Of a stretch of DNA of 60,830 nt, positions 566-59,326 are shown piece after piece. The first letter of the stretch is position 1; every line of letters starts with the position of its first letter. Both the position numbers and the translations under genes were made by a program. The notes beneath the pieces were generated by a model. That model saw only the letters and a list, made by a program, of their open reading frames with translations. It was not told the DNA's origin and did not search any database. Origin of the DNA: a virus; the IMG/VR virus record IMGVR_UViG_3300032053_000074, positions 1 through 60,830 of that record; one strand, 5' to 3'.

Positions 566-1084
566 CTATTTTATTTGTTCAAATGGAGTATCACATAGAA
601 GATCTACATATTTCATTATCTTTGTATGAGTTTCGTCTTCTATTTTAAAATTCCATTTTTTAGTTGCAGTATTATCAATCCATTCACGGAGAGATGTACC
701 AAATTCTTCTGATCGTGCTTTAATATCACAGCAAAACTCAGCCAAATATACATCTGGCATATCTTTAATTCCTCCAGTCCAATTTTCAGGATGGTGTGAA
801 TTAGTCATATTATGTTGATGAATAGCAAGTTTCAACTTTAACTTATTTTCTTCAGATGGATTATTGAGGGATAAATATTCAAATTCTATACCATAGAATT
901 TACTTGCATCATGAACAAACCCATTGGCAATTAACCGTTTACCTAAGTCAATTTCTCCACTCATAATAAGTTTTTCACCTAGTAAAAAACAATTATCTTC
1001 TACATTACGTATGTGCCTTGTAATAGCACGAATCTTCGTCATTGTTAATTCAGCATCTTTTTTAAGACGATCACTTCTCTTCAT
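566..1084 (-). CDS. DUF5662-like HD-type protein
   Basis: The protein resembles the DUF5662 family, a small all-helical group related to HD phosphohydrolases whose substrate is unknown. Visible motifs are HDASKF around the middle, then AIHQHNMTNSHHPENW, a His-rich metal-binding pattern, and an acidic DIKAR segment. I chose the ATG at 1084 because a consensus promoter places its -10 box (1093-1098) a few bases upstream; an earlier TTG would overlap that promoter. No ribosome-binding site is visible, so the mRNA is probably leaderless. It is transcribed apart from the head operon to its right. The family call is from motif memory; function is not inferred. Confidence 0.6.
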   Translation of the reverse strand: MKRSDRLKKDAELTMTKIRAITRHIRNVEDNCFLLGEKLIMSGEIDLGKRLIANGFVHDASKFYGIEFEYLSLNNPSEENKLKLKLAIHQHNMTNSHHPENWTGGIKDMPDVYLAEFCCDIKARSEEFGTSLREWIDNTATKKWNFKIEDETHTKIMKYVDLLCDTPFEQIK

Positions 1085-1092
1085 ATGTAACA

Positions 1093-1120
1093 ACTATAAC
1101 AGACTCAGTGAAAATGTCAA
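1093..1120 (-). promoter_or_regulatory. Sigma70-type promoter for the DUF5662-like gene
   Basis: On the minus strand TTGACA (1120-1115) and TATAGT (1098-1093) are separated by exactly 16 nt. The predicted start of transcription is within about 3 nt of the ATG at 1084. The same box pair and spacing recur at least seven more times in the window. Confidence 0.7.
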
Positions 1121-1125
1121 GGATA

Positions 1126-1950
1126 TTAACTTCTGTCACCATCACCCATATAATTAGACATATCTGGATCAGGTTGCCGTCTCGATGCACGAGGGTCATG
1201 ATCTAGCTCGATAATGTGATATCCTTGACGTATATATTTTCCAATTTTTTCTGGTGAAATATTAATCTTCCCTCCATTATCTTTATTATCTATCCAATAG
1301 ACATAAGACCCACCCTGTCGGTCTTTATAAATAGTACCAGCGGAATTTTCATCCATTGTTTCATCTTCTTCATAGTCAGGATCAGTTCGCTTATTAAGTC
1401 TTTTCTTATATCCACCTTCTGTTCCTGAACCACCGCAAGATGCACACTTTGTGCCATCATGCATTCCTTCGCCACTTCCATTACAGCTGGAACATACCGT
1501 ACTATTTGATTCATCCATTCCACCAAATAAAGATTCATCTCCCTTCACTGCATCCTGCATTCTTTTACATGCAAGCACTATTTTATCTGCCCATTCTTGA
1601 GAATATGTAGCGGGTAATTTAATAGTTTTTTCTATATGATTACCCGGCATCATGTCAAGACGTTCACTATCATAATATCTTTCTAAAAATACCGTATCTG
1701 ATTCTGTATTTACACTACATCCTACAGTAGCAAATCCACTCATATAATATTCCATAAAATCTCGTGGATCAGTACCTTGTGTATAAAATCTTAATTTTTC
1801 TAATTCAGCATAAATATACTTTTTATATTGTTCACACGCTTCCCCATCATTAGTTTCTTTTATATTGATGTTCGAGGATTTATTTGATAAATTCTCTTTT
1901 AGAATTTCAAATACACATTCTTTAATGAGGGATTTTAAATTAATTTGCAT
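1126..1950 (-). CDS. Hypothetical head-module protein with DnaJ-type zinc motif
   Basis: I do not recognise the family. The N-terminus LKSLIKECVFEILKE matches a short amphipathic helix found at the start of several neighbours. At about residues 152-175 there are two CxxCxGxG units (CSSCNGSG and CASCGGSG), the cysteine-rich repeat of DnaJ-type zinc centres, although no J domain is present. The last 60 residues are acidic and polar. The start overlaps the end of the preceding gene by 11 bp, so both belong to the head operon that runs down from the portal. A role in head assembly or as a minor virion protein is only inferred from position. Confidence 0.6.
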   Translation of the reverse strand: MQINLKSLIKECVFEILKENLSNKSSNINIKETNDGEACEQYKKYIYAELEKLRFYTQGTDPRDFMEYYMSGFATVGCSVNTESDTVFLERYYDSERLDMMPGNHIEKTIKLPATYSQEWADKIVLACKRMQDAVKGDESLFGGMDESNSTVCSSCNGSGEGMHDGTKCASCGGSGTEGGYKKRLNKRTDPDYEEDETMDENSAGTIYKDRQGGSYVYWIDNKDNGGKINISPEKIGKYIRQGYHIIELDHDPRASRRQPDPDMSNYMGDGDRS

Positions 1951-2905
1951 ATGCTAATATTTCATATTTTGCCGGTTGTCCTTCTCCTGCTAAATTTTCC
2001 CAATTAAAGGAAATACGGCTATTTTGAATAGTTGGTTTATCTGTAAAAGTATCTTGTCCTGGATCATTCAATCTTCGATATGGAAGTAAAAGACTTCCTT
2101 TAGGAGTATTTAATCCTCCACTTACCATGTTTAACCCAAATCCTACACTTGATAATGCATTAGTAACCGCAGTCAATCCTTGACCAGGAGATTCAAAATC
2201 ACGCTTATTACCATCTGCTCCAGCAGTTTTTAATGCCATTCCAAGTTTCTTTCTTTCACTGTTGGAAACTTTATCAACTGTTATTGCTCCTGCTTCTTTA
2301 GATCTAATAAATGGAGTCCTAGTTTTTACTGCATTTAAAAATCGTTCCTTTTGATTATTCCAATCTTCCCACATCTTAGGTAATTCTGAAGTTGAATAAT
2401 TACCGAAATTTATTTTACCTCCCTTGTTTGACATTGCATTACTAAAAACATACCATGAACGGTCATCTCCATATCTGCTGTCCAATGAAAAATTTCCTAT
2501 GTATCCAAATGAAATTCCAGGATAATCCTTCTTTATATTATTATCTATATCGTTTTGCAAATTTTCATAAGCAGAATTTATTTGTGATTTATTTGATGCA
2601 TCAGTACGTTCTCTAGGCGAAGGTTGAAATTCATCTGATTGTGAATCATATGGTTCTGGTTGAGAAGTTTCTTTTATTTTAGGTGAGCATTTATGTCCAA
2701 TTGACCATTTTCCACCGCACTTTTCACATGGAGTTGGATGATAAACATCTTTATCATTTTTCAAGCTCCACTTATCGGATGGGTTTGATGGTGGTCTTCC
2801 ATCACCATCTTTATAGTCTGGATATTCAAGAGATGGATCACTACGTTCAGTTATTACTTCTGCAATACACTGTTTCACTAATTTTAGAAGTTGATGTTGA
2901 TTCAT
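1940..2905 (-). CDS. Hypothetical head-module protein, zinc-knuckle-like
   Basis: The protein has no recognised family. It opens with LLKLVKQCIAEVITE, the same helical motif as the next gene. A Cys/His cluster follows near residues 59-73 (CEKCGGKWSIGHKC), which could bind zinc. The middle is polar and low in complexity, and the second half looks globular. It lies directly after the prohead protease, where T4 has its scaffold gene 22, but the sequence does not look like a scaffold. The end overlaps the next start, which suggests coupled translation. Its place in the virion or procapsid is inference. Confidence 0.6.
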   Translation of the reverse strand: MNQHQLLKLVKQCIAEVITERSDPSLEYPDYKDGDGRPPSNPSDKWSLKNDKDVYHPTPCEKCGGKWSIGHKCSPKIKETSQPEPYDSQSDEFQPSPRERTDASNKSQINSAYENLQNDIDNNIKKDYPGISFGYIGNFSLDSRYGDDRSWYVFSNAMSNKGGKINFGNYSTSELPKMWEDWNNQKERFLNAVKTRTPFIRSKEAGAITVDKVSNSERKKLGMALKTAGADGNKRDFESPGQGLTAVTNALSSVGFGLNMVSGGLNTPKGSLLLPYRRLNDPGQDTFTDKPTIQNSRISFNWENLAGEGQPAKYEILAYAN

Positions 2906-2909
2906 ATAA

Positions 2910-58397: not shown

Positions 58398-58405
58398 ATT
58401 GAAAA

Positions 58406-58520
58406 CTAGATACCATTTTTTTGGTCTGCTGTCTTACCACTTGACCATATCATTCGAAAATGATAAATGGAATCGAACCATTGTATGCAGATTGAGTTTT
58501 ATTATGCTGTTAGTATCTAA
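58406..58520 (-). tRNA. Circularly permuted tRNA gene (3' half before 5' half)
   Basis: In transcription order the region has TCTGC, ATAC, T-arm AATGG-TTCGATT-CCATT, 3' acceptor strand TATCATT (58491-58459), linker TTCG (58458-58455), then 5' acceptor strand AATGATA, TG, D-arm GTC-AAGTGGTAA-GAC, A, GCAGA (58454-58425). The acceptor strands pair 7/7 and GCAGA pairs 5/5 with TCTGC, so a full cloverleaf forms only across the permuted order. The flanks TTAGATACTA (58520-58511) and TGGTATCTAG (58415-58406) also pair, extending the anticodon stem. The anticodon cannot be read with certainty; joining CC to CTCAA would give CTC (Glu). No CCA is encoded. Confidence 0.75.
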
Positions 58521-58528
58521 ATTATAAA

Positions 58529-58602
58529 TGGAGCCGGATGACAGAATCGAACTGTCATTCTCTGTTTACAAAACAGTAGTTCTACCATTGAACTAAACCG
58601 GC
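58529..58602 (-). tRNA. tRNA-Thr(TGT)
   Basis: Acceptor GCCGGTT/ATCCGGC with one mismatch, anticodon stem ACTGT/ACAGA with loop TTTGTAA (TGT), T-arm GACAG-TTCGATT-CTGTC and encoded TCCA. It abuts the stop of the upstream gene. Confidence 0.9.
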
Positions 58603-59289
58603 TTAAATCTTTTTAAATTCTATTCCATTTTCTGTCAATAATGCATAATCACCATCTTTACTTAGTCTTCCTATGCATATTAATTTTATGAGGAAATTAT
58701 TATATTCTACTACAAAGTTTCTATGATTATGCCCAATTAAAACCGCTTTTGTTTTATTATTCCATGGATAGGTTTTAATAAATTCATCTTTAGTAAATGT
58801 TTCTTCTGTAAAAGACCATAAATCATTAGGACGATTATGAAAACAGATATAATTACTTTCATCTGGTAAAATCAACTTAAATCCTCTTGGCAATCCCTTT
58901 AGATAATCAATATGTTGTTGAGTTAAATCATAAATATCCGACTCAGCTAAAACTGATTCTCCCTCATTATATTTCGGTAAAACCTTAACAAAACTGTCGC
59001 CGGTACTACAACCTAAAATATGGGATTCATGATTTCCTTCCAAACATGGAATCTGGTTGTCTATGAAATATTGAATTGATTTTTCATTCCACTTTTCTTT
59101 CACTTTAGAAAATAAAAAGGTAATATCACCCAAACAAATAAACTTATTATTCGAATAAATTTCTTTTAATTTTCTAATATTTGTAATATTAGTATGAGTA
59201 TCTGTAATTATAACTAACGGAAATTCTTTAACTTCAATTTCTTGAAGATTAGGTTTATTGTCGTATGACTTAGTTAGTATTAATTCCAT
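58603..59289 (-). CDS. Metallophosphoesterase (calcineurin-like)
   Basis: The metal ligands appear in the usual order: VIITDTHTN (D-x-H), ICLGDITF (GD), LEGNHESH (GNHE), FHNRP and IGHNHRN (GHxH). At 228 residues it resembles single-domain phosphodiesterases of the YfcE/Metallophos_2 type; the substrate could be a nucleotide or cyclic nucleotide. The ATG at 59289 follows a consensus promoter by 8 nt and has no ribosome site. The tRNA-Thr gene starts at its stop codon, so the message may be processed at the tRNA. Confidence 0.8.
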   Translation of the reverse strand: MELILTKSYDNKPNLQEIEVKEFPLVIITDTHTNITNIRKLKEIYSNNKFICLGDITFLFSKVKEKWNEKSIQYFIDNQIPCLEGNHESHILGCSTGDSFVKVLPKYNEGESVLAESDIYDLTQQHIDYLKGLPRGFKLILPDESNYICFHNRPNDLWSFTEETFTKDEFIKTYPWNNKTKAVLIGHNHRNFVVEYNNFLIKLICIGRLSKDGDYALLTENGIEFKKI

Positions 59290-59297
59290 ATCGTAAC

Positions 59298-59326
59298 ATA
59301 ATATCATATCCCTTGATTAGAGTCAA
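59298..59326 (-). promoter_or_regulatory. Sigma70-type promoter for the phosphoesterase gene
   Basis: TTGACT (59326-59321), 17 nt spacer, TATTAT (59303-59298), with the ATG 8 nt further on. Confidence 0.7.

Follow-up and report, generated by a model that had tools for sequence, protein, structure and literature searches.

How much of a phage's gene expression can do without a 5′ leader? The question is raised by a stretch of viral DNA of 60.8 kilobases (kb) and 32% GC, IMG/VR record IMGVR_UViG_3300032053_000074 (G000 among the genomes compared here, and hereafter the window, by which we mean the whole stretch), in which a sequence-only reading had noticed sigma70-type promoters fused to start codons and had proposed leaderless early genes. 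Our answer is that the window very probably comes from a member of a T4-like jumbo phage clade whose early and late messenger RNAs (mRNAs) are largely leaderless. In the mechanism that we propose, host RNA polymerase would transcribe the early genes from sigma70-type promoters abutting the start codons, with +1 at the AUG, and the late genes would be transcribed with a phage-encoded gp55-like sigma factor from a TATTTATA element, with +1 falling at the ATG. Translation would proceed by leaderless initiation, in which the 5′-terminal AUG is bound by a 70S ribosome or by a 30S subunit with IF2 and fMet-tRNA. The actual start sites of transcription, the early or late timing and the route of translation are what we infer from the patterns described below.

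Promoters at the start codons of the window

All eight minus-strand boxes listed by the sequence-only reading are present (Table 1; each promoter is cited by the last base of its -10 box). They are of the sigma70 type (TTGACA/TATAAT hexamers 16-18 nucleotides (nt) apart), and the spacer that had been given as 16-17 nt is indeed 16 nt in seven of them and 17 nt in the eighth. The -10 box is as close to the ATG as had been claimed, although the gap measures 6-9 nt rather than 7-10 nt; this leaves too little room for any Shine-Dalgarno (SD) word, and the reported absence of such sites is borne out. With this placement +1 would be the start codon or lie within about 5 nt of it. We count eight occurrences of the pattern TTGAC[AT]-N15-18-TATnnT-N6-9-ATG in the window; 100 dinucleotide shuffles give a mean of 0.4 and a maximum of 3.

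Two of the eight promoters had been taken to drive transfer RNAs (tRNAs). This probably holds for promoter 51827, which is followed by a probable tRNA scoring just under the Rfam cut-off. After promoter 55528 neither ARAGORN nor Rfam finds a tRNA, though by eye the sequence can be arranged as a cloverleaf resembling tRNA-Ser. An ATG lies 9 nt past the -10 box of the former and 8 nt past that of the latter, and each opens a frame of nine codons.

The same spacing across the clade

Since its structural block is colinear with those of G001 (365 kb) and G002 (251 kb), where the median protein identity is about 45%, and in part with that of G005 (139 kb), we read the window as a fragment of a T4-like jumbo phage. 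Its proteins include a portal, baseplate proteins, a T4-type terminase and PhoH, the last two of which both look intein-bearing. Further relatives compared include G009 (369 kb), G011 (103 kb) and G003. The nearest named phages have a baseplate protein in common with the window at just 35-40% identity, and a megablast search with the first 25 kb of the window gave no match among known phages.

A genome-wide scan of the distance from motif to start codon had been suggested as a check on the sequence-only reading, and the spacing that it reveals is far from random. The distance from the -10 box of TTGAC/TAnnnT promoters to the first open reading frame beginning with ATG (ATG-ORF) peaks sharply at 6-11 nt, with a mode of 6 nt and a background of about 3%; the peak holds 86 genes in G001, 74 in G005, 41 in G002 and 11 in G003. 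When TTGAC-N16-TAnnnT is counted at a gap of 6-9 nt before ATG, at a gap of 26-29 nt and, with the pattern reversed, at 6-9 nt, the numbers are 89, 20 and 4 in G001, 56, 9 and 3 in G002, 73, 8 and 2 in G005, and 8, 5 and 1 in the window. Boxes ending 6-9 nt 5′ of an ATG number 45 in G009 and 28 in G011, and the reversed control stays at 0-4 in each of G001, G002, G005, G009 and G011. Shuffled versions of G005 hold 0.7 start-abutting promoters, against 62 in the real genome. The arrangement also recurs at individual genes: the TyrA-like gene and its abutting promoter are found together in the relatives L011, L012, L016 and L019, and in G001 and G005 a leaderless promoter sits on the next gene at this place, where in the window a small reading frame heads the structural block.

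Among 13 known phages, 12 (T4, phiKZ, G, P-SSM2, SPO1, AR9, Ma-LMM01, PA5oct, crAss001, Mel-JY01, immuto and LR756508) lack a comparable excess of start-proximal promoters over controls. The thirteenth, Agrobacterium phage Atu_ph07, has 21 start-proximal promoters against 5 in the control; its leadered promoters are more numerous (33), many of them with a clear SD site.

Are these the promoters of early genes? They are depleted in the structural block, both in the window (0/38 vs 6/17, p 0.0004) and in its relatives (p 0.03 in G001, 0.0015 in G002 and 0.01 in G005). In the relatives the genes behind them encode DNA polymerase A, DNA and RNA ligases, a helicase, NAD synthase, nicotinate phosphoribosyltransferase, PARP, Mom and RlaP. 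Because the promoters avoid the structural block and precede genes of DNA and RNA metabolism, it is plausible that they serve early or middle expression. The proposal of leaderless early genes is supported as regards leaderlessness by sequence evidence (the spacing, the lack of SD sites and the clade-wide recurrence), but not as regards a limit to early genes, since structural genes carry a start-proximal motif of their own.

Two gene sets among the leaderless genes may be recorded separately. G001 combines genes for NAD metabolism and ADP-ribosylation in one phage, namely NAD synthase, nicotinate phosphoribosyltransferase and a WGR-PARP protein (L054:15323-17413, L055:10730-11893, L055:15344-16621). 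Leaderless homologues of Druantia DruA are found in G001 (L050:3384-4724, L053:12526-13629) and in G002 (L066:13104-14312).

Start codons and Shine-Dalgarno sites

Of 110 leaderless genes that encode at least 100 amino acids (aa), not one has an SD word upstream. When the leaderless proteins are compared with six-frame, stop-to-stop translations of the other genomes, 53 of 79 pairs align from residue 1-3 onwards. Both genes have a leaderless promoter in 26 pairs. Two starts in the window are anchored by the protein itself, as the leaderless Met is where both the Rossmann motif of the TyrA-like product and the lipoprotein signal begin. A pyrimidine stands directly before the ATG in 82% of early and 86% of late cases, compared with about 41% before any ATG, which is as expected if the A of the ATG is the start of transcription. 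As a separate matter, 57-72% of all long reading frames, including operonic ones, have a T directly before the ATG in all genomes of the leaderless clade, against 34-40% in Mel-JY01 and immuto.

Structural genes had been described as often having SD sites. This is not what we find: taking the rate in intervals further upstream of genes as background, SD words precede 10% of the other genes of the window against 6% further upstream, and 5% against 2-8% in G005. The AAGGA cited before 29492 exists, yet it is not typical of structural genes. Genes internal to operons in the clade lack SD sites as well.

A second motif and a candidate late sigma factor

Unbiased word counts 5′ of structural genes bring out ATATTTAT/TATTTATA, with 15 observed against 0.9 expected. 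In all clade genomes the TATTTATA element lies 3-7 nt 5′ of the ATG, or 4-8 nt when counted from TATTTAT, and the enrichment of TATTTAT before ATG is confined to one orientation. Pooled TATTTAT sites (n = 133) lie 3-9 nt before the ATG, with a peak at 4-8 nt. We take TATTTATA as the probable late promoter, used by a gp55-like sigma factor. The T4 late promoter consensus TATAAATA was rejected for this role as, unlike TATTTATA, it shows no enrichment at start codons. The 7-mer GGTCACA, enriched in G009, was also rejected as a promoter, being part of a repeat array; in G009 (L310-L328), 15-nt repeats around GTCACAAGT form a long array, which looks coding.

A weak match to sigma70 region 2 in LR756508 led to a homologous gene in the window (42% identity; Table 1). 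Every relative that holds the structural block has a homologue of this sigma candidate, and hundreds of IMG/VR contigs encode one too. The structure that its predicted model matches best is T4 gp55 in the gp55-RNA polymerase open complex (7d7c_F, Z 10.2, root-mean-square deviation 3.9 over 117 residues), followed by many other sigma factors, and as modelled the product has a gp55-like sigma region 2 fold. Foldseek alone gave no match for the candidate at E <= 0.001. Sequence matches of the family are weak (PF04542 at E 0.076 in one member, and the sigma family phrog_1740 at E 0.19), and searches of the genomes for Pfam sigma70 region 2 and IF3 returned none above the cut-off. The sigma gene and TATTTATA are both conserved in the superfamily, an association from which we infer their pairing.

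Sister lineages keep the motif and the leader

Sister lineages with the same sigma family offer a useful contrast. There TATTTATA is equally conspicuous, but it occurs 0 times at 2-9 nt, 16 times at 10-17 nt and 29 times at 18-25 nt, whereas the clade of the window has 31 and 21 occurrences at 2-9 nt and 0-6 in any later bin. Sisters with the motif at 10-25 nt have a strong SD site (TTAGGAGA); with immuto and Mel-JY01 included the range is 10-37 nt 5′ of the ATG, most with SD. In the sigma tree a branch with support of 100/96 parts 28 rows (23 near, 3 mixed and 2 far) from 51 rows (42 far, 2 near, 1 mixed and 6 unscored), and as far as motif positions tell, the shift relative to the ATG follows this supported split. 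The same motif stands at a different distance in the sisters, so the promoter would have been retained while sister lineages came to differ by loss or gain of the leader.

Two named phages, Flavobacterium phage immuto and Microcystis phage Mel-JY01, illustrate this. Both have the baseplate protein and the gp55-like sigma in common with the window clade, and TATTTAT is enriched before the genes of immuto. Unlike the clade, both are leadered: most copies of the motif lie 10-23 nt ahead of the ATG in immuto and 17-37 nt ahead of it in Mel-JY01.

Alternative explanations

Several points weigh against a largely leaderless clade. Roughly a quarter to a half of the promoters have no ATG-ORF within 60 nt (they precede tRNAs and other sequences), SD sites are kept in some relatives (26% in G003, 12.5% in G001), and the relatives are mostly metagenomic fragments. 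The positions of the transcription start sites are read from the DNA sequence, and leaders of 1-5 nt may occur. Sister phages G013 and G014 lack SD sites and yet are not clearly leaderless, so the loss of SD sites and the loss of leaders are not perfectly coupled. One-mismatch matches to TATTTATA in the window alone number 16 against 10-12 for control words, so that the evidence for the late class comes from exact matches and from the relatives. Confidence in the sigma model is moderate (predicted local distance difference test score 74), Pfam and PHROG searches of the candidate gave nothing above the cut-off, and its sequence comparison with T4 gp55 is weak (hhalign E 0.085). Finally, a host search through GTDB contigs returned only scattered metagenome-assembled genomes (MAGs). 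The sole close cellular match, in an archaeal Methanoregulaceae MAG, was rejected as a host, as its small phage-like contigs are probably a binning artefact.

Does the phage simply follow the convention of a host that is itself rich in leaderless mRNAs and poor in SD sites, like Deinococcus or Actinobacteria, rather than a strategy specific to phages? We give this idea about an even chance; it addresses the cause and does not conflict with leaderless mRNAs throughout the clade. Some phyla are rich in leaderless genes (Zheng 2011, PMC3160421; PMC12340547), and SD use differs among phages of the superfamily, probably with the host. Against it, the known leaderless-rich hosts use -10-only TAnnnT promoters and are mostly GC-rich, whereas here both the -35 and the -10 boxes are strong.

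Very short leaders of 1-8 nt, with SD-independent but not strictly leaderless initiation, would fit the gaps of 8-11 nt after the -10 box that exist notably in G011 (ACACAATG) and G001. We consider them improbable: RNA polymerase commonly starts 6-9 nt past the -10 box, at a purine, and the modal gap here is 6 nt, which would put +1 on the A of the ATG, the base preceded by a pyrimidine in more than 80% of cases.

That the real starts lie downstream, with the abutting ATG untranslated or minor, is conceivable inasmuch as start codons were called computationally, but it is very unlikely in view of the homologues that align from their first residues (53/79 pairs) and of the Rossmann motif and lipoprotein signal that begin at the leaderless Met. 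Chance TATAAT-like boxes near ATG, as DNA of 32% GC might supply, are refuted almost beyond doubt by the shuffles (0.4 vs 8 in the window, 0.7 vs 62 in G005) and by T4, AR9, G and the other known phages without a comparable excess.

Features of the window and accessory RNA genes

Table 1. Promoters, leaderless genes, late-type motifs and the sigma candidate of the window
Feature	Position	Strand	Remarks
Promoter TTGACA-N16-TATAGT	1093..1120	-	8 nt 5′ of ATG 1084
Leaderless gene, DUF5662 protein, 172 aa	566..1084	-	PF18907 E 7e-22; homologues align from residue 1
Promoter TTGACA-N16-TATATT	51278..51305	-	6 nt 5′ of ATG 51271
Leaderless small membrane-like ORF, 58 aa	51095..51271	-	Heads structural block
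Promoter TTGACA-N16-TATAGT	51827..51854	-	Ahead of tRNA-like sequence
Probable tRNA, anticodon CAT	51734..51801	-	Not initiator-type; Rfam tRNA 28.5 bits vs cut-off 29
Promoter TTGACA-N16-TATACT	53560..53587	-	7 nt 5′ of ATG 53552
Leaderless TyrA-like (PDH_N) gene	52941..53552	-	Rossmann motif MKINIIGDGSFG begins at leaderless Met
Promoter TTGACA-N16-TATAGT	55528..55555	-	Ahead of tRNA-Ser-like sequence
Promoter TTGACA-N16-TATAGT	57716..57743	-	9 nt 5′ of ATG 57706
Leaderless small lipoprotein-like gene	57575..57706	-	Lipobox LSGC after Met signal peptide
Promoter TTGACA-N16-TATCAT	58275..58302	-	7 nt 5′ of ATG 58267
Leaderless gene, 141 aa	57842..58267	-	No family assigned
Promoter TTGACT-N17-TATTAT	59298..59326	-	8 nt 5′ of ATG 59289
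Leaderless calcineurin-like phosphoesterase gene	58603..59289	-	PF00149 E 1e-7
TATTTATA motif	60425..60432	-	4 nt 5′ of ATG 60420 (papain-like protease gene)
TATTTATT motif	48277..48284	-	3 nt 5′ of ATG 48273 (632-aa structural-block gene)
TATTTATG motif	42077..42084	-	7 nt 5′ of ATG 42069
TATTTATA motif	40055..40062	-	3 nt 5′ of ATG 40051
TATTTATA motif	38882..38889	-	3 nt 5′ of ATG 38878 (baseplate wedge gene)
gp55-like late sigma factor candidate, 313 aa	42134..43075	-	Best structural match T4 gp55; conserved across clade

Elsewhere in the window, the portal gene carries an HNH endonuclease insert (6711-10784), the terminase has intein-splicing and LAGLIDADG matches (10842-13772) and the PhoH protein has LAGLIDADG matches (48289-50157). 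A non-coding stretch of about 400 nt (53590-53990), between 54010 and the promoter at 53587, has no Rfam or ARAGORN match.

The jumbo relatives also encode accessory RNAs. Genes for transfer-messenger RNA (tmRNA) with distinct tag peptides are found in G001 (L060:388-791), G002 (L075:17242-17649) and G011 (L348:17225-17600), those of G001 and G002 with a sigma70-type promoter just upstream. G001 (L060:6814-6888) and G002 (L075:14949-15024) have tRNAs that ARAGORN calls tRNA-Pyl; their anticodon is CTA, so they are possible amber suppressors. TAG is the rarest stop codon in both genomes (20/476 in G001, 9/315 in G002).

Discussion

Leaderless mRNA is itself well known. Among the open-access papers searched we found none on phage-genome-wide leaderless transcription from host-type promoters; the only related one, on AR9, describes long leaders and remarks that phage transcripts are often leaderless. 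Clade-wide use for both early and late genes, set against leadered sisters with the same late motif, appears to be new as far as those papers show.

Leaderless mRNAs of phages are usually seen as isolated cases such as lambda cI. A leaderless lineage with a leadered sister that uses the same late promoter is a natural experiment on the ways in which translation initiation changes and on the reasons for it. There are practical sides too: start codons in such genomes are misplaced by those gene callers that rely on SD sites, and for experimenters, if the mRNAs are leaderless, leaders and SD sites would not be control points in these phages.

Could the loss of leaders be a switch in translation at the level of a lineage? 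Early and late promoters would both have moved onto the starts, and an initiator-type tRNA, found in at least G001 and G002, could favour leaderless mRNAs over the SD-led mRNAs of the infected host. We hold this to be a tentative and rather unlikely idea. Initiator tRNA supply favours leaderless translation (reviewed in PMC9031893). The initiator-type tRNA(Met) of G001 (L058:17603-17679) has an A1-A72 mismatch and is 89.5% identical to a tRNA-Met found at about four places per E. coli genome, and that of G002 (L077:2681-2755) has a T1-T72 mismatch. Large tRNA sets often include initiator-type genes, so the link to leaderless initiation is just a lead.

Three known systems are instructive for comparison. 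Transcription of lambda cI from PRM resembles the clade in its sigma70-type promoter, a +1 at the A of the AUG and the lack of an SD site, but cI is a single maintenance gene, whereas the clade, made up of jumbo phages that appear to be lytic, has dozens of such genes per genome and a second class of promoter. In the Deinococcus-Thermus group and the Actinobacteria, leaderless genes likewise have a -10 box (TAnnnT) abutting the start codon and no SD site; these are cellular, mostly -10-only and GC-rich systems, in contrast to AT-rich phages with a strong -35 box at N16. T4 late transcription (gp55, TATAAATA) resembles that of the clade in a phage sigma factor, putative in the clade, with a gp55-like sigma2 fold and in an 8-nt -10-type element, without an apparent -35 box, before structural genes. 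Unlike the T4 late promoter, the element of the clade reads TATTTATA and is placed 3-7 nt from the ATG.

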